Origin: Luteolibacter sp. Y139
Lineage (GTDB): Bacteria > Verrucomicrobiota > Verrucomicrobiia > Verrucomicrobiales > Akkermansiaceae
Direction: 5' to 3'
Assembly: GCF_038066715.1 (NCBI RefSeq)
Contig: NZ_JBBUKT010000006.1
Coordinates: forward strand, 310,001-374,000
Length of the DNA: 64,000 bases
Part shown: piece by piece, positions 2,076 through 14,263 of the stretch
Numbering within the stretch: position 1 is the first letter of the stretch
Layout: each line of letters opens with the position of its first letter
Program-made: the position numbers and the translations under genes
The notes under the pieces: generated by a model
Told to the model about the DNA's origin: nothing
The model's database searches: none
What the model saw: the letters and a program-made list of their open reading frames with translations, nothing else

Positions 2076-2873
2076 ATGGACGAAAATCCTGATCGGGCCC
2101 CGGCTTCCCAGCTTCGGATGGAGAACTCCGATGCCTGGGTGCGGGCCCAGATCGTGCCCTTCGGGGTCTTCATGGGGTTCCTGTTGCTGTTGCAGGTCTT
2201 CAGCAGCTTGTTTGGCTGGTCGCATCCCGCGGCGCCATGGTGGAGGCACTGGCCGGAGCAGTGGATCTATCCGCTGCAGACGCTGGTGTGCCTTGTCCTG
2301 CTGGCTCGCTGGTGGAAGTACTATGAATTCCGTTGGTCGTGGAAATGGTCGATCGCGGGCGTGATCTTCGGCGCGGTGGGCATTGGGTTCTGGCTGCTGC
2401 CGACAGTGATGTATGATCGCCTCGGGCTGACCGGGGAAACGACCGGTTTGCAGAAGTGGCTGGGGCTTGCGGCGCGCACGAAGGGCTTCAATCCCGCGGA
2501 GGCGTTTGGTGACGGCACGCCGGTCTTCTGGACGGCGCTGATCATGCGCTTCGTCCGCGCGGTCGTGGTCGTGGCGCTGGTGGAGGAGATCTTGTGGCGC
2601 TCTTTCATGATGCGCTTCTCGGTGGATTGGGAAGGGGACTACTGGAAGCGGCCCTTTGGCCAGGCCTCGTGGAAATCGTATGCGATCGTCACCGGGCTGT
2701 TCATGGTGGCGCATGCGCCGGTGGATTATGCCGGAGCCTTTGTCTACGGCTCGCTGACCTACCTGCTCTGCATCTGGAGCAAGAACCTCGGCGCCTGTGT
2801 GATCATGCACGGAGTGGCGAACCTGCTGATGGGACTGTTCGCGATCGCCTACGGGAAATACGGCCTCTGGTAG
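2076..2873 (+). CDS. CAAX prenyl protease-related (CPBP) intramembrane protease, PEP-CTERM-associated type
   Basis: 265 residues with about seven hydrophobic segments. The diagnostic CPBP/Abi triad is present: an EE-x3-R motif in VEEILWRSF (Glu 170-171), a His in MVAHAPVDY, and a His in IMHGVANLL near 245. The overall architecture, with the WW/YY-rich N-terminal helices, matches the 'CAAX prenyl protease-related' family that occurs in genomes with exosortase/PEP-CTERM sorting. A PEP-CTERM substrate is indeed encoded at 60384-61157, but no exosortase is in the window. It probably cleaves membrane-embedded peptides in the inner membrane. It lies between an aminotransferase and a rhomboid gene on the same strand. 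Confidence 0.8.
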   Translation: MDENPDRAPASQLRMENSDAWVRAQIVPFGVFMGFLLLLQVFSSLFGWSHPAAPWWRHWPEQWIYPLQTLVCLVLLARWWKYYEFRWSWKWSIAGVIFGAVGIGFWLLPTVMYDRLGLTGETTGLQKWLGLAARTKGFNPAEAFGDGTPVFWTALIMRFVRAVVVVALVEEILWRSFMMRFSVDWEGDYWKRPFGQASWKSYAIVTGLFMVAHAPVDYAGAFVYGSLTYLLCIWSKNLGACVIMHGVANLLMGLFAIAYGKYGLW

Positions 2874-2937
2874 GGCCGGTGGCGATGCCCTGAATTCGAT
2901 TGGCGCGGTGGCGAATCGTGGGGGAGAGTCGCGATAG

Positions 2938-3789
2938 ATGGACGAGAACGCGAGCGAGGAAGAACTGCCGGACCTGGTGCCGGTCGGCGCGTGGCCATCG
3001 CTGGGTGAGGCGCAGGAACACGCGCTGGTGGTACTGGCGATGAATCTGGAATGCTGGATTTTTCCTGCCGCTGGCCAGTATGCGTTGCTCGCTCCTCCTG
3101 CCGAGGCACCGGGGATTCACCGGGAGTTCGCGCTGTATGAAAGCGAGCAGTCCGATCGGCGGGTGCGTATCGAGCCGCCGGTCTTTCCCGCGGGCATCGA
3201 ACTCGCCTTGGTGTGGGCGCTTTCGCTGCTGGTCGTTTTCTGGTGGCAGGGGCAGGACCTCTCGCTGGTGGACCGCTTCTGCAATTCTAGCAAAGCGCTC
3301 GTCGAAGGTGGGGAGTGGTGGAGGTCTTTCACCTCGCTCTTCCTGCACGCGGATGCCGGACACCTGCTGTCGAACATCGGCATCGGCGGGATCTTCTGCG
3401 TGATGGTTGCCCATACGGTTGGCGCCTGGCGTGGATGGGCGCTCATCCTTGCCGGCGGAACGTTAGGAAACTTGGCTAATGCTTGGGCACGCTATCCCAC
3501 GCCCTTCGAATCGATCGGGGCCTCCAGCGCGACCTTCGCCGCAGTCGGCATCCTGACCGGAGTGGCGACCTTGCGAGCGTGGCGTTTTCATTCATTGCGG
3601 GAGCTGCGGCCGTTGATGGTGCCCTTGCTGACCGGCCTGATCGTGCTCGGCTGGTATGGCAGTGGGGGCGACGGCCCGGACGCGGCGAGGACCGACGTCG
3701 CCGGGCACGTCGCGGGCTGGACGGGTGGTTTCTTGTTAGGAGCGGCGGTACAGAAATTCGAGCGGACGAAATCCACGGATATGGTCTAA
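2938..3789 (+). CDS. Rhomboid-family intramembrane serine protease
   Basis: A 283-residue protein with an N-terminal cytoplasmic region of about 80 residues and then six or so transmembrane segments. Rhomboid signatures are WRSFTSLFLHADAGHLLSN (the HxxxN loop), the catalytic serine in SIGASSATFAA (near 196, in the GxSx motif), and the catalytic histidine in DVAGHVAGWTGG (near 257). It would cut transmembrane substrates in the inner membrane. The genes on both sides are colinear, and the adenosyltransferase begins 10 bases after this stop, so they may share a transcript. The N-terminal extension is not a recognisable domain to me. Confidence 0.88.
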   Translation: MDENASEEELPDLVPVGAWPSLGEAQEHALVVLAMNLECWIFPAAGQYALLAPPAEAPGIHREFALYESEQSDRRVRIEPPVFPAGIELALVWALSLLVVFWWQGQDLSLVDRFCNSSKALVEGGEWWRSFTSLFLHADAGHLLSNIGIGGIFCVMVAHTVGAWRGWALILAGGTLGNLANAWARYPTPFESIGASSATFAAVGILTGVATLRAWRFHSLRELRPLMVPLLTGLIVLGWYGSGGDGPDAARTDVAGHVAGWTGGFLLGAAVQKFERTKSTDMV

Positions 3790-9890: not shown

Positions 9891-11189
9891 TCACGGTGTC
9901 CCGAGCTTCGTCAAAGCCACGAGGTCCGACCACGTCTGCCGCCGCGATTCGCTCCAGCCGGAGAAGTCCGGTTGGCTCTCCGGGTTCGCTTTCAGCCAAA
10001 TATCGAAGGCTTGGACAAGGTATTCGCCGCGCCGCTCCGGGTCGAAGCGATCCACCCAATCCAGGGTCTCAGTCAGGGATGAAGCTGCCTGGCCCCGGAC
10101 ATACTCGCTGGTGGCCCAGCTCGCGTCTTTGCCTGACAAGGACTCGATCCAGGCACGGCAGGCGGCAGGATCGGTAGTGGCCCATTCTTTCGCGATGATG
10201 GTCGCGGACGAAGGTCTCTGTCTTTCCGACACCGACGCGAGTTTCTCTTGAGCGGCCTTTTCGCGCTGATCTGCCGGAACTTCCGCCCATTCCTTGGCCG
10301 TGATCGTGACCGCTTCGAAGGAATTTTCCGGCAGGTAGCTGACGTAGCTGGAATTCCGGAAGCCGTCCGGGTCCAGCTTCCTCCAGAGCCGGAGCAAGGT
10401 CTGGGCGTGGGTCTCCGGGCCTAGTGTGAAAGGCTTGGTCGCGTCGCGGGTTTTGAGCACCTCGATCATCTCCGGGGGGAAGGCCTGCATGGCTCGTTCG
10501 ACCAGCCGCGGGTCGGTGAGGGTGTCTTCCCAACGATCGTCGTGTGAGGAGAAGCCACCGCGTTTCAGGAAAACCTCCATGCCGAGCTTGGGGTCTTCCC
10601 GGAGCAGCCACCCGGAGATCAGGTTGAGGTCGGCGAATTTCAAGCCGGGTGCGTCGAGATTCTTCGCCTGCTCGATGGAATAGTCATCGAAGAAATCTTT
10701 CCCCCGATCCGGAGGGCGGGCTTCCAACTGGGCAAGCGTCCATGCCTTGAGCCCTTCGGGATCCCGCCATGCCCATGCCGGACCGATTTGTTGGAAGGCC
10801 GTTTTCCATGCCGGCTTCGACCGGAACTCCTGCCATGCCCAAGCGATCGCCGCTTCGGGATCCTGGGATGCCCAGCGAATGAGCAGGGCCTTGGCGGATA
10901 GGGTCAGCTCTCCATCGCGAGTGGTCTGGATGGATGAGAGGGCGGAGAGAATTTCGGTGGATGGAATCCTTTCGAGACGCAGGGCCGCCTGTAGCTTCTC
11001 TCCGTCCGACTTCGCGTTCTCGATGGCTGCGACGAGGGCATCCAGTTCGTCTCGTCGCCATGGCTTCGCGGCGGGTTCAGGGACTGCGGCGGCGACGGGC
11101 TCCGCTGGCGTGCCCGGCCAAAGCACGATCCAGCCAATGGCGGTCACCGCGCAGGTGGCCAGGAAGACCGCTGCGGATTTCGCTCTCAT
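9891..11189 (-). CDS. Membrane-anchored repeat protein, paralogous to the C-terminal half of the adjacent sigma-factor fusion
   Basis: 432 residues with an N-terminal transmembrane segment (SAAVFLATCAVTAIGWIVLW, about 5-25) and an extracytoplasmic remainder. The body is built from helical repeats recognisable by a DP-x-AA-x-W pattern: QDPEAAIAWAW, RDPEGLKAWT, DPAACRAWIE, each preceded by a Trp-Ala or similar. The first 70 residues after the anchor align by eye with the matching part of the upstream sigma fusion (LRLERIPSTEILSALSSI against LRATLERISITELPAFFSL). The ATG overlaps the upstream stop by four bases (ATGA), so the two are translationally coupled. I know no named family. A sensor or ligand partner for the fusion is a guess. 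Confidence 0.78.
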   Translation of the reverse strand: MRAKSAAVFLATCAVTAIGWIVLWPGTPAEPVAAAVPEPAAKPWRRDELDALVAAIENAKSDGEKLQAALRLERIPSTEILSALSSIQTTRDGELTLSAKALLIRWASQDPEAAIAWAWQEFRSKPAWKTAFQQIGPAWAWRDPEGLKAWTLAQLEARPPDRGKDFFDDYSIEQAKNLDAPGLKFADLNLISGWLLREDPKLGMEVFLKRGGFSSHDDRWEDTLTDPRLVERAMQAFPPEMIEVLKTRDATKPFTLGPETHAQTLLRLWRKLDPDGFRNSSYVSYLPENSFEAVTITAKEWAEVPADQREKAAQEKLASVSERQRPSSATIIAKEWATTDPAACRAWIESLSGKDASWATSEYVRGQAASSLTETLDWVDRFDPERRGEYLVQAFDIWLKANPESQPDFSGWSESRRQTWSDLVALTKLGTP

Positions 11190-13234
11190 GGGGTGGTCTT
11201 CGCGAGCTGTTGGAGTTCTTCGCGAATTGCCGCCGGGAGATCCTTGCGCTCCAGGATGCCGGGCACGTCGCCGGGGATTTGACATTGCAGGCGGCGGAAG
11301 GCGCCGCGGCAGATTTCCCTGGCAGATTCCTGGTCGCTCAGGCGCGAGGCCAATTCGATGATCCGGGCGTAGGGCGTATCGCCGACGACCCATCCGGTCA
11401 CCGGGCCGGCGTATTTGCCGAGCCTTTCGTGCAGAAGATCGTCGAAAGAGGTCTCGGTCTGGTGGTCGTCGATCCACGCGAAGGCCCGCTTGAGGTCTCT
11501 TTGGTCGAGAAGCGCGGTGGCGACGGCATTCAGCACCTCGCCGCGCGAGAGGCCGGCGGCGATGCCGGATTCGATGAGTTGTCGTTCGTTCAGCGCCAAG
11601 GGTTCGACGGGTTCGGAATGGCTGGTGTAGCCGCCGCCTGCCATGGGGGTATTGTGGGTATGCCGATGGCGCACTCCGAGTTCTCCCAGTTCGCGGGCGA
11701 AGTGGTCGGCGGGTGTCATCATGGACTCCAGTTGCGCGGCCTTCTCCGGCTGGTCTTCGAGGGTCTTTTGCCAGATGATGGCGGCAATGGAGCATCCGAA
11801 CGCCCGGTCGTTCAGCTTTTGGGTCTCGCGGAGCATTTCATTGAGCCGCGTGGGATCAATATTGTGCCACGCGTTCATGTAGGGATTAGCACCTGTTAGA
11901 GCGATCAAGGCGCGCCGTCTCATGGCTTCGTCGGGCAACGAGGCGATGAAGGAAAAGGCAGCGTTCGCGCTTTCGTGGAGGAGCACTTCATCGGCAATGC
12001 TCATCGCCAGGAACTCACCGAGAGTGGAGTCAAAGGCTTCTTTCCGCAGGGCCGCGGCTTGCCAATGGTCCACCAGCCATGCGCGGGATGCGGAAAGATC
12101 GGCATACATCCACCGATCGAAGATGTTGTTGATCAGGTTGGTGCCTCGCGCCTTGTCCACGTCATCCCATAGCGGATGCTCGATCATGAAGGTCAGCGCG
12201 GCGTCCGGGTCTGACTGAACCCACCGCTCGAGCAGCAGGTTGAAGCAAACTGCTTGCTCGGCGGTGGTCAGCTTGTCATGGGCTAGGGAAAAGAAAGCGG
12301 GGAGCTCGGTAATCGATATCCGCTCCAGGGTCGCACGTAGTTTCAGCGTCGTGAGCGAGTGCTTCGGGCCGGCTTGGATCCGCTTGATCTCGGCGATCAG
12401 GTCTTCGTTGTTAGTTGGCTGTGAGGCTGGGCGAGGTACCGCTTTCGTGGCCAGAGATGGCGAAGCGGGCGGGGGAGAGGCTTGATCCCGGATCGCCAAG
12501 GCAGTGCCGGCGATCAATGAGGTGGCGAGCACTCCGCTGATAACCGGTATCAGCCAGTCCGCTTTCCATGAGGCTCCCGTGAGAGGGGCGGATTGGAACG
12601 CGTGAGTGGCGACTTGGGTCACCAGCGAGGCGGGAACGGGTGTGGTTCCAAAGCTCGCCATGGTGGTGCCGAGCGAGGCGCTGCCGACGGCGATGCCGCG
12701 CTTCCGCAGGGTGGCGGCGAGTTGGTCGAGGGCGCGGGTGACACGCTTGCGAGCTGCTTCTTCGGTGGTGCCGAGGGCTGAGCCGAGTTTCCGGAAATCG
12801 TGCCCTTCGAAGAAGCGGAGCACGAGGGCGTCGCGGGCTGGGGAGGGCAGGGAAAGCATCGCCGCGTCGACTTCACCGCTGAGGGCTTCGCTCGCGAAGG
12901 ATGTTTCGGTTTGTGACGGGTCCATCATGCTGGCGGCGACGAGTTCCCGCTGGCGGCGGCGGCTTTCGGTTCGGGCGTGGTTCGCGGCACGCCGGCAGGT
13001 TTGCCGGTAGAGCCAGGCGGACAGGATGACATCGCCAAGACTGCCTGCTTTCCTCGCCAGCAGTGTGAAGACTTCCTGCATCACATCCTGCGCCGCGGCA
13101 CGGTCACCGCCGAGCATCCGCAGTGCGGTGCCGTAGACGACCGGCGAGTGCAGGCGGACCAGCTCACGGAAGGCCCGTTCCGAGCGTTCGCGGGCGAATT
13201 CACCCAATAGCCGTTTCGTCTCATCCGCCATCAT
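11186..13234 (-). CDS. ECF-type sigma factor fused to a transmembrane helix and an extracytoplasmic repeat domain
   Basis: 682 residues. Residues 1-85 look like sigma-70 region 2 (FRELVRLHSPVVYGTALRML, DVMQEVFTLLARKAG, SAWLYRQTCRRAANHAR). Residues 125-178 look like region 4 (LPSPARDALVLRFFEGH, then the helix-turn-helix RKLGSALGTTEEAARKRVTR). A linker leads to one transmembrane helix at about 226-247 (VISGVLATSLIAGTALAI), then a Pro-rich stretch and about 420 extracytoplasmic residues with DP-x-AA repeats (SDPDAALTFM). The sigma half would be cytoplasmic. Similar sigma-TM fusions are known in Planctomycetes and Verrucomicrobia; this C-terminal domain I do not recognise. No anti-sigma gene is adjacent. 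Start may be either of two tandem ATGs. Confidence 0.85.
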   Translation of the reverse strand: MMADETKRLLGEFARERSERAFRELVRLHSPVVYGTALRMLGGDRAAAQDVMQEVFTLLARKAGSLGDVILSAWLYRQTCRRAANHARTESRRRQRELVAASMMDPSQTETSFASEALSGEVDAAMLSLPSPARDALVLRFFEGHDFRKLGSALGTTEEAARKRVTRALDQLAATLRKRGIAVGSASLGTTMASFGTTPVPASLVTQVATHAFQSAPLTGASWKADWLIPVISGVLATSLIAGTALAIRDQASPPPASPSLATKAVPRPASQPTNNEDLIAEIKRIQAGPKHSLTTLKLRATLERISITELPAFFSLAHDKLTTAEQAVCFNLLLERWVQSDPDAALTFMIEHPLWDDVDKARGTNLINNIFDRWMYADLSASRAWLVDHWQAAALRKEAFDSTLGEFLAMSIADEVLLHESANAAFSFIASLPDEAMRRRALIALTGANPYMNAWHNIDPTRLNEMLRETQKLNDRAFGCSIAAIIWQKTLEDQPEKAAQLESMMTPADHFARELGELGVRHRHTHNTPMAGGGYTSHSEPVEPLALNERQLIESGIAAGLSRGEVLNAVATALLDQRDLKRAFAWIDDHQTETSFDDLLHERLGKYAGPVTGWVVGDTPYARIIELASRLSDQESAREICRGAFRRLQCQIPGDVPGILERKDLPAAIREELQQLAKTTP

Positions 13235-13300
13235 CGCCTGAAAGACACCGCAGGTGGGCGGGACCGGACAGGAAATTTTCGGCGGGGTCGAAGCGTTCGG

Positions 13301-14125
13301 TCAGCTCGAGCTTGTCTTCACCAGCAGGCCCTTTTCCCGGGCGGTGCGCAGGACCGAGGCAAAGATCCAGCCAGCGAGGGAAAGGTAAACGGCATTCAAT
13401 CCGAGGCCGATGAGGAAATGTCGAAGGTCGAAGCCGCCGTGCCCGATCGCGCCGCGCATGCCTTCGAAAACATGCGAGGGCGGGAAGAGCGAGGCGATCG
13501 CCTGCATCCAGCCGGGCAGTGCGCTCATGGGGTAGAAAACGCAGGCGAAGGGCTGGATCATGAAGGGCAGGGCCCATGCCAAGGACTCCGCGCCATGGCC
13601 CCAGCGCAGGATCAGGGCGATCGAGAGAATTCCGAGCGCCCAGCCGAAGATCATCAGGTTCGCGTAGTAGGCGATCACCCCGAATTTGAACTGGAGCAGG
13701 TTGAACGAGTAGGCGGAGTAAGCCACGATCGTGAGGACGATGGCGGTGATGCCGACGCGCAGCAGTCCCACGCCGAAGGTGGCGGCGATGTAGTCCGTCA
13801 TCCGGACCGGGGCGGCGAAGATATTGAGCAGGTTGCGGGTCCAGACGTCTTCCAGGAAGGAAATCGAGACCCCCTGTTGGGCCCGGAACAGGGCATCCCA
13901 CAGCATGATGCCGCCGATGAGGAAGGTGATGTAGTGCGGGAAACTTTTCCCGCTGGCTGCCATTTGCCCGCCGCTGCCGGCCTCCTGCAGGAACTTCGTG
14001 ACGAAGCCCCAGACCAGCAGCTGTACCAGCGGCCAGAAGAACAGCTCGAAGGCCCGCATCGGGTTCTTCGCGTAGAGGAGCACGTAGCGGGTCAGCAGGG
14101 CTCGGATGACGGACGGGCGGAACAT
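13301..14125 (-). CDS. ABC-2 type transporter permease
   Basis: 274 residues with six predicted membrane helices and the ABC-2 family segments FELFFWPLVQLLVWGF near the start, the ITFLIGGIMLWDALFRAQQG block, and a final FYPMSALPGWMQAIASLFPPSHVFEG motif, the conserved Pro-rich loop of this family. It would form the membrane channel of an exporter of drugs, lipids or polysaccharide. The start MFRPSVIRALL removes 16 upstream residues without homology. A fitting ATPase (18133-18909) is on the same strand about 4 kb upstream, separated by two oppositely oriented genes. Confidence 0.88.
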   Translation of the reverse strand: MFRPSVIRALLTRYVLLYAKNPMRAFELFFWPLVQLLVWGFVTKFLQEAGSGGQMAASGKSFPHYITFLIGGIMLWDALFRAQQGVSISFLEDVWTRNLLNIFAAPVRMTDYIAATFGVGLLRVGITAIVLTIVAYSAYSFNLLQFKFGVIAYYANLMIFGWALGILSIALILRWGHGAESLAWALPFMIQPFACVFYPMSALPGWMQAIASLFPPSHVFEGMRGAIGHGGFDLRHFLIGLGLNAVYLSLAGWIFASVLRTAREKGLLVKTSSS

Positions 14126-14263
14126 GGGGCGCGGGGCGGCGCAATGTGTGCCTGCGGAACCGTATGACGCCAATGGAAAAGCCGCGGGGCGTTCTTTCGA
14201 TAAGATCGAACTTGTCTCCCCGTAGATCGCCCGCTCCGATTGGAAGCCTAGACCTAATTACCC

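Follow-up and report, generated by a model that had tools for sequence, protein, structure and literature searches.

The window examined here, by which we mean the whole 64,000-nucleotide stretch of Luteolibacter sp. Y139 (contig NZ_JBBUKT010000006.1, positions 310,001 to 374,000), carries on its minus strand a gene for a membrane-tethered sigma factor of the extracytoplasmic function (ECF) type, P0001, followed by a gene for a second anchored protein, P0002. Read from its sequence, the locus comprises an ECF sigma factor joined through a linker and a predicted membrane segment to a helical repeat domain, an overlapping gene for a related and anchored partner, and a conserved putative promoter of ECF type that is the cassette's own. 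The features are the following:

11186..13234, minus strand: coding sequence of the membrane-tethered ECF sigma factor P0001, 682 amino acids (open reading frame, Pfam and TIGR matches, full-length orthologues)
12956..13162, minus strand: sigma-70 region 2, residues 25-93 (Pfam PF04542, Sigma70_r2, 31.5 bits, cut-off 24)
12719..12874, minus strand: sigma-70 region 4, residues 121-172 (Pfam PF08281, Sigma70_r4_2, 30.6 bits, cut-off 25.7)
12554..12718, minus strand: linker of about 55 residues from region 4 to the membrane segment, residues 173-227 (partly conserved in orthologue alignments)
12497..12553, minus strand: sole transmembrane segment, residues 228-246 (Kyte-Doolittle mean 1.95; similar place across the family)
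11189..12496, minus strand: presumed extracytoplasmic part (no Pfam match; related to P0002; family consensus)
9891..11189, minus strand: partner gene P0002, 432 amino acids, with an N-terminal membrane anchor and a related helical domain (overlap, BLAST, AlphaFold2 model)
11121..11177, minus strand: N-terminal anchor of P0002, residues 5-23 (Kyte-Doolittle 2.11)
11186..11189, minus strand: ATGA overlap of 4 bp between the P0001 stop and the P0002 start (sequence)
13244..13274, minus strand: putative autoregulated ECF promoter TGTCCG-N14-CGGTGTC (conserved at orthologues, genome searches, motif statistics)
13265-13270, minus strand: -35-like block TGTCCG
13244-13250, minus strand: -10-like block CGGTGTC

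P0001 (11186-13234, minus strand) is a single uninterrupted open reading frame of 682 amino acids without an internal stop. It passes all the cut-offs for sigma-70 regions 2 and 4, the basis for its membership of the ECF group (group 4), and scores 63.5 bits with TIGR02937 (cut-off 42.9); with TIGR02989, the Rhodopirellula/Verrucomicrobium sigma family, it reaches 43.2 bits, below the curated cut-off of 124.55. The membrane segment was called from Kyte-Doolittle hydropathy alone; the peak at residues 228-246 is the best in the chain, the next-best segment having a value of 1.23, and it lies where an earlier sequence-only reading had expected a helix, near residues 226-247. Behind it come a stalk rich in Pro, Ala, Ser and Thr (about residues 247-272) and a helical domain of DPxAA repeats; the roughly 435 C-terminal residues have no Pfam or NCBIfam match. 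The GC content by codon position has a coding-frame pattern both in the sigma part (0.71/0.52/0.77) and in the outer part (0.64/0.44/0.75), and differs in the Ala/Pro-rich linker and helix (0.61/0.66/0.69). Pfam, TIGR02937 and hydropathy therefore agree with the architecture first proposed, one chain with sigma regions 2 and 4, a single membrane helix and a large outer domain. That reading had also seen no anti-sigma factor nearby, and indeed none is recognizable by Pfam (E 0.1) in P0001 or in the next gene. We considered a zinc-finger anti-sigma factor encoded elsewhere and dropped it, since the organism's own genome (7.1 Mb in 31 contigs, 96.7% complete) has no zf-HC2 match at E 0.001, the search there having been confined to this anti-sigma family. 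What the first reading had missed was the partner gene, the conserved promoter and the family to which the fusion belongs.

This family, which that reading had suggested looking for in other Verrucomicrobia, turned out to be large. P0001 has eight orthologues in six other loci that align over their full length at 35-47% identity. In the window together with 90 fetched regions (80 around part of the matches in relatives, 10 in the own genome), a sigma profile detects 98 fusions, among them the nine orthologous genes; the set was selected by similarity to P0001 rather than as a census, and in a few the outer part is shorter than 100 residues. The hydrophobic peak behind the sigma part, taken as the best within a stretch of about 100 residues, exceeds 1.4 in 96 of the 98 and is at least 1.6 in 82, the remaining 2 of 98 falling below 1.4. 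The own genome encodes eight further chains on the same plan, 512-679 amino acids long as open frames. Of 29 genomes, the own one and near relatives, 17 give matches with E values of 1e-20 or lower (106 in total and up to 23 per genome), and a contig scan gave at least 80 loci among the matches listed, one of them a full-length relative and 79 matched in the sigma part. When a profile of the sigma part, linker and helix was run against 145 genomes of the phylum, at least 13 genomes had matches above 180 bits that covered nearly the whole model, in open frames of 431-2319 amino acids; the next matches drop to 151 bits and below and are mostly plain sigma factors, so that the split is a clean one, and as at most 18 candidates were scored per genome the counts are lower bounds. 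A further set of 13 genomes consisted of seven planctomycetes, one opitutal genome, four acidobacteria and RYN_631: four of the seven planctomycetes match all or nearly all of the profile (frames of 541-1374 amino acids), the opitutal genome has three matches and the four acidobacterial genomes have none.

The partner gene is tied to the kind of outer domain that precedes it. The helical outer domain occurs in 66 of the 98 fusions, as judged by BLAST clustering and a profile. Where at least 900 bases of downstream sequence were available, a helical protein lies directly downstream of 49 of the 62 helical-domain fusions versus 1 of the 32 other fusions (Fisher 2e-13); the profile was trained on both members, and the fair part of this result is the contrast with the other fusions. 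In BLAST clustering one helical group takes in 57 outer domains together with 49 downstream proteins, and in 41 pairs both members fall within it. The three outer domains of a second cluster (L022, L072, L104) are each followed by a partner of their own type (3/3), and a third cluster of three outer domains includes one pair of outer domain and downstream protein. An anchored protein of at least 240 amino acids lies within 80 bp of 55 of 94 fusions, with an exact 4-bp overlap in 32 of these 55, and the same ATGA overlap is found in 35 of all 98 (again counting downstream genes of at least 240 amino acids). For the window's own pair, the outer part of P0001 and P0002 share 39 of 139 aligned residues with a BLAST value of 3e-9 (one to one, no composition correction), and the same pair with composition correction in the pool of partners has an E value of 0.2 and rank 13; taken singly this pair is weak evidence of relatedness, and it is the family that carries the point. 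Across the 41 pairs the distances between outer domains correlate with those between partners (r 0.55), and none of 1000 permutations was as high (mean 0.00, standard deviation 0.04). The nearest neighbor is the same for outer domain and partner in 28 of the 41, and the sigma distances correlate with those of the partners too (r 0.42, 41 pairs). Such a pattern, as far as sequence distances go, shows that outer domain and partner have been inherited together, which is not the same as their binding to each other.

Some loci depart from this arrangement in other ways. The downstream proteins of L082 and L128 with that of L093, and those of L070 and L107, cluster in groups of their own; at L082 the gene behind the sigma fusion (2532-3707, minus strand) specifies a partner of another kind, a member of the DKNYY family (120.7 bits). 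In two genomes (L061, L062) two whole sigma-partner cassettes stand in tandem. At L029 (5715-9202) a plain sigma factor of 213 amino acids is divergent from two partner-type proteins, one of 425 amino acids with a clear anchor and one of 445 with a weaker anchor, which looks like an unfused version of the sigma-partner arrangement. The helical DPxAA domain is also present in frames of the own genome away from the listed fusions (40 rows, for example at C3:457704 and C1:1014033), and it seems to be a general repeat of this organism.

The putative promoter of P0001 lies 9 nt upstream of the ATG. At every one of the nine orthologous genes CGGTGTC, or a sequence close to it, stands 8-12 nt from the start, and TGTCCG, again exact or nearly so, stands 14-15 nt further up (spacing counted by eye); both blocks are exact with a 14-nt spacer in three of the nine, the window's included, and one is exact with 15 nt. 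Measured against this strict form, the first block deviates in two of the nine promoters and the second block in four, and by eye the upstream genes and the remaining upstream sequence differ from one of the nine to another. In the wider family the motif is an A/T-rich stretch followed by TGTC, whose spacing to the start varies rather little. It scores at least 6 bits in 80 of 97 windows, with a median of 48 nt (quartiles 46-52) from its first base to the start codon. The nearness of the promoters to the start would predict near-leaderless mRNAs. The downstream block appears by eye to be clade-specific. In the 97 upstream windows the motif search gave a log-likelihood of 356.6 versus at most 99.9 in six shuffled sets, these having been run with fewer restarts, and TGTC occurs in 71 of the 97 versus a mean of 23 and a maximum of 32 in 40 shuffles. 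A motif trained on half of the sigma clades was tried on the held-out windows, and in 26 of 39 and 37 of 58 of them the score was higher than the 95th percentile for 373 other genes used as a control.

Genome searches point the same way. A relaxed form of the motif has 18 matches in six genomes (a reversed control pattern has one), nine of them at the starts of sigma fusions (seven orthologues and two other fusions) and nine inside open reading frames; one genome, G015, has no match, its orthologous promoter reading TGTCTC. With the strict form the total is again 18, of which four lie at sigma fusions, and its control gives two. In the own genome there are five relaxed matches, the cassette's own promoter and four inside open reading frames. 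Across all 70 usable windows the -10-like block is more alike where the sigma factors are more closely related (r 0.24-0.29, 0/300; for the spacer r 0.08, 11/300), a sequence correlation that suggests some specificity between sigma factor and promoter. We also considered an operon with the upstream ABC-2 permease gene (13301-14173) and discarded it, because the cassette is preceded by a conserved promoter of its own and different genes lie upstream at the orthologous loci.

On which side of the membrane do the repeat domains lie? Relatives carry, behind the same sigma and helix part, TonB_C, alpha-2-macroglobulin or carboxypeptidase-regulatory repeats by Pfam (the last in the planctomycete L244), domains that work outside the cytoplasm; of ten relatives scanned, six had no Pfam match in the outer domain. 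By comparison with these relatives, the repeat domains of P0001 and P0002 probably lie outside the cytoplasm as well. AlphaFold2 models the partner as all-alpha with a mean predicted local distance difference test (pLDDT) score of 70.4, and P0001 poorly (mean pLDDT 57.5), with its outer part helical at low confidence. Foldseek likens the sigma part of P0001 to the structures of sigma-E, AlgU and SigW, short of E 0.001. The outer helical part, compared as a candidate HEAT/ARM/TPR-type solenoid, has no match at E 0.001 and its top entries are mostly helical solenoids, while its best VIA-align hit (Z 8.0, root-mean-square deviation 4.3, 136 residues) is within the generic range of that tool; these models rest on two sequences each, a further alignment having been left out because the partners fitted poorly along the full chain, and a missing structural match is uninformative. 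We assign no fold to the outer domain, the candidates (importin, AP2, aminopeptidase N and others) being generic helical repeats.

The relatives with recognizable outer domains include some unusual chains. At L256 (3526-4854, minus strand) and L240 (3032-4360, minus strand) an ECF sigma factor, a membrane segment and a TonB C-terminal domain form one protein, possibly a direct link from TonB-dependent receptors to transcription. At L237 (1213-7965, minus strand) the sigma factor and membrane segment are followed by a giant extension with alpha-2-macroglobulin domains in a frame of 2251 amino acids, and at L238 (1356-8303, minus strand) by a giant extension in a frame of 2316 amino acids; upstream of both lies a near-identical stretch containing TTTTTGTAACAATCCG.

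The sequence-only reading had held that such a sigma factor must either act at the membrane or be released by proteolysis. Three species have orthologous short-tailed relatives (open frames of 334-382 amino acids) with a Prc gene 76-142 nt behind. By Pfam and gene order these loci are:

L117:1690-5140, minus strand: short-tailed fusion and Prc/Tsp (S41) gene
L122:1877-5132, minus strand: short-tailed fusion and Prc/Tsp (S41) gene
L315:3542-6931, minus strand: short-tailed fusion and Prc/Tsp (S41) gene

In all three the Prc protein has the Pfam domains S41, TSP_NTD and DUF3340, and the tails of the short relatives end in mostly apolar residues; at L315 the Prc gene is followed by a further anchored protein of 345 amino acids without a Pfam match. 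Among the matches from a search of 57 genomes, these three alone extend to residue 318 or further out of 324. For the later step of such a pathway, the own genome has matches to M50 proteases (6 rows, 5 frames). There is also the precedent of IutY, a one-piece sigma/anti-sigma protein described as processed by Prc and RseP (PMC5411451). Given the Prc neighbors and this precedent, release by proteolysis in general becomes, by analogy, more plausible than it could have seemed from the letters alone, and we infer rather than observe the cleavage of P0001 itself as well as the pairing of the two outer domains.

The two intramembrane proteases in the window, to which a link had been suggested, are a different matter. 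They are a CPBP protease (2076-2873, plus strand; 86.4 bits with TIGR03008 pepcterm_CAAX, cut-off 81.05) and, adjacent to it, a protease with a Rhomboid Pfam domain (2938-3789, plus strand; 28.4 with the rhombosortase model, below the cut-off of 84). Both lie on the opposite strand, their ends 6-7 kb away from the cassette and 7.4-8.3 kb away from the sigma gene, and several genes intervene. No tie to the cassette was seen, the orthologous loci not having been checked for these genes, and without a shared operon we dropped the connection; perhaps the pair serves protein sorting rather than sigma release.

Our preferred interpretation, to which we give about an even chance, is that the locus is a two-gene, self-activating cassette in which a one-piece receptor and sigma factor is freed by proteolysis and the partner acts as co-receptor or guard. 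In the resting cell the sigma part would be kept at the membrane, away from most promoters, and the outer domains of P0001 and P0002 would pair, the partner either shielding the sigma protein or bearing the ligand site; shielding of an anti-sigma factor by a periplasmic partner has been reported (PMC11637429). A periplasmic signal or damage would disturb the pair, whereupon a site-1 protease of the Prc type would trim the outer domain and a site-2 protease of the M50 family would cut within the membrane. The freed sigma part would then read its own promoter, giving more P0001 and P0002 and the products of any further targets. As in IutY, the canonical sigma/anti-sigma relay would be contained in a single chain, but here the outer domain would be present a second time, as a co-receptor.

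A number of observations weigh against this interpretation. Eleven fusions form one group without a matching partner, and 13 of the 62 helical-domain fusions have no helical gene directly behind them. The only Prc gene of the own genome has no adjacent sigma fusion, and the short-tailed fusion at L083 is followed by a helical protein and not by Prc. The searches of the own genome turned up no further target promoter, which leaves an output beyond the cassette unproven, and matches in the window with up to two mismatches are at chance level (3 versus 2.6 expected). When the windows are thinned to 27, the -10-like block no longer follows sigma relatedness (26 and 43 of 300), and the spacer does so better (3/300). 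Finally, the Lys and Arg residues beside the membrane segment are more numerous inside in 20 of 82 fusions and outside in 31, the rest being equal; the positive-inside rule was not discriminating and we dropped it as evidence of topology, which is better supported by the identities of the outer domains in relatives than by charge.

Alternatively, the outer domains could be the product itself, a self-replenishing surface protein of which the sigma part merely gauges the loss or cutting, with no wider regulon. We think this rather unlikely. It would fit that, of the five relaxed-motif matches in the own genome, the promoter of the cassette itself is the sole one outside open reading frames, and likewise that one relative has as its outer domain alpha-2-macroglobulin, a protein that is cleaved on protease attack; but ECF promoters tolerate variation, so that a motif built on one promoter may miss targets, and plain regulators often autoregulate as well. 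It is less probable still that the sigma factor is active while tethered, the helix placing it so that RNA polymerase is recruited near the membrane without cleavage: the operon of P0001 has no protease gene and its linker between region 4 and the helix has about 55 residues, yet the Prc genes next to the three short-tailed relatives speak for processing, and among comparable proteins IutY is described as active once released (PMC5411451) and a release has been proposed for SCO4117 as well (PMC5826349). A partner that is an inhibitor of a new form, binding the outer domain of P0001 and being itself the part that is degraded, would accord with the conserved coupling and the co-inheritance, but we consider it improbable as the anchor of P0002 starts at residue 5 and leaves almost no cytoplasmic part to cover the sigma factor directly. 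A frameshift or assembly join of a sigma gene with an unrelated membrane protein gene, the refutation that had been foreseen, is excluded for practical purposes because the whole layout recurs in eight full-length orthologues at six other loci, and 98 fusions were found in the regions examined.

Tethered one-piece ECF factors are already known: IutY, ECF52, ECF48 and ECF53 have been discussed in print, along with ECF57 as a further group that has extensions (PMC8999054). IutY of Pseudomonas putida (group ECF243) is described as a cytoplasmic ECF sigma factor with a periplasmic domain, released by Prc and then RseP (PMC5411451, PMC8999054). P0001 similarly joins a sigma factor and a presumed outer domain in one chain; in IutY the periplasmic part is an anti-sigma domain that cooperates with a receptor of the outer membrane, whereas P0001 has a helical repeat domain without an anti-sigma Pfam match (E 0.1) and a co-encoded, related partner. 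The ECF52 protein SCO4117 of Streptomyces coelicolor has, by its published description, an ECF sigma factor, a membrane region, a Pro-rich stretch and an outer domain in one chain, with activation by release proposed and autoregulation reported for a truncated form (PMC5826349). P0001 shares this order of sigma factor, membrane segment, Pro-rich stretch and outer domain. The ECF52 group features zinc-finger and carbohydrate-binding domains and is described as exclusive to Actinobacteria; P0001 has no Pfam match to the zinc finger between sigma part and helix (E 0.1), and none to a carbohydrate-binding domain behind residue 172, where the low-confidence model is helical.

The fusions of planctomycetes offer another comparison, since the profile of the P0001 family matches some of them. 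One group from these bacteria, ECF57, was called ECF01-Gob in older work. Like P0001 it has a C-terminal extension and comes from the same superphylum; the features published for it are a pair of conserved cysteines that link regions 2 and 4 and, for some members, WD40-like repeats (PMC8999054), whereas P0001 has no WD40 match at E 0.1 and a single cysteine, Cys80, in residues 1-228. With the RseA/RpoE, FecR or FoxR types the cassette would have in common periplasmic sensing by proteolysis and, possibly, a protective periplasmic partner of the kind reported (PMC11637429). It differs from the canonical membrane anti-sigma systems in that sigma factor and tether are one protein and the partner resembles the sensor domain itself. 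In the literature searched, which did not include the main ECF classification paper, we found no article devoted to this family and no description of a matched second copy of the outer domain, of the promoter family or of the Prc neighbors, and we make no claim of absence in print.

A review counts the control of ECF sigma factors that lack an apparent anti-sigma factor among the open questions (PMC8103513). The present family supplies many natural one-piece receptor/sigma proteins with predicted promoters of their own, making the control step testable by reporters, and the set of promoters could serve to work out how sigma factors and promoters are matched in specificity. From the matched partner one may suspect a design rule, namely that the sensor domain is made twice, with and without the sigma part. 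More speculatively, and we would not rate it as likely, the Verrucomicrobiota and their relatives may possess a modular class of self-reporting surface proteins, each with a periplasmic domain, be it a helical repeat, TonB_C, alpha-2-macroglobulin or another, on a tethered sigma factor, such that loss or cleavage would free the sigma part to re-transcribe its own gene, and often a matched second copy of the domain, from a private promoter and with no need of an anti-sigma factor. If this were true, each cassette would be its own receptor, switch and product.

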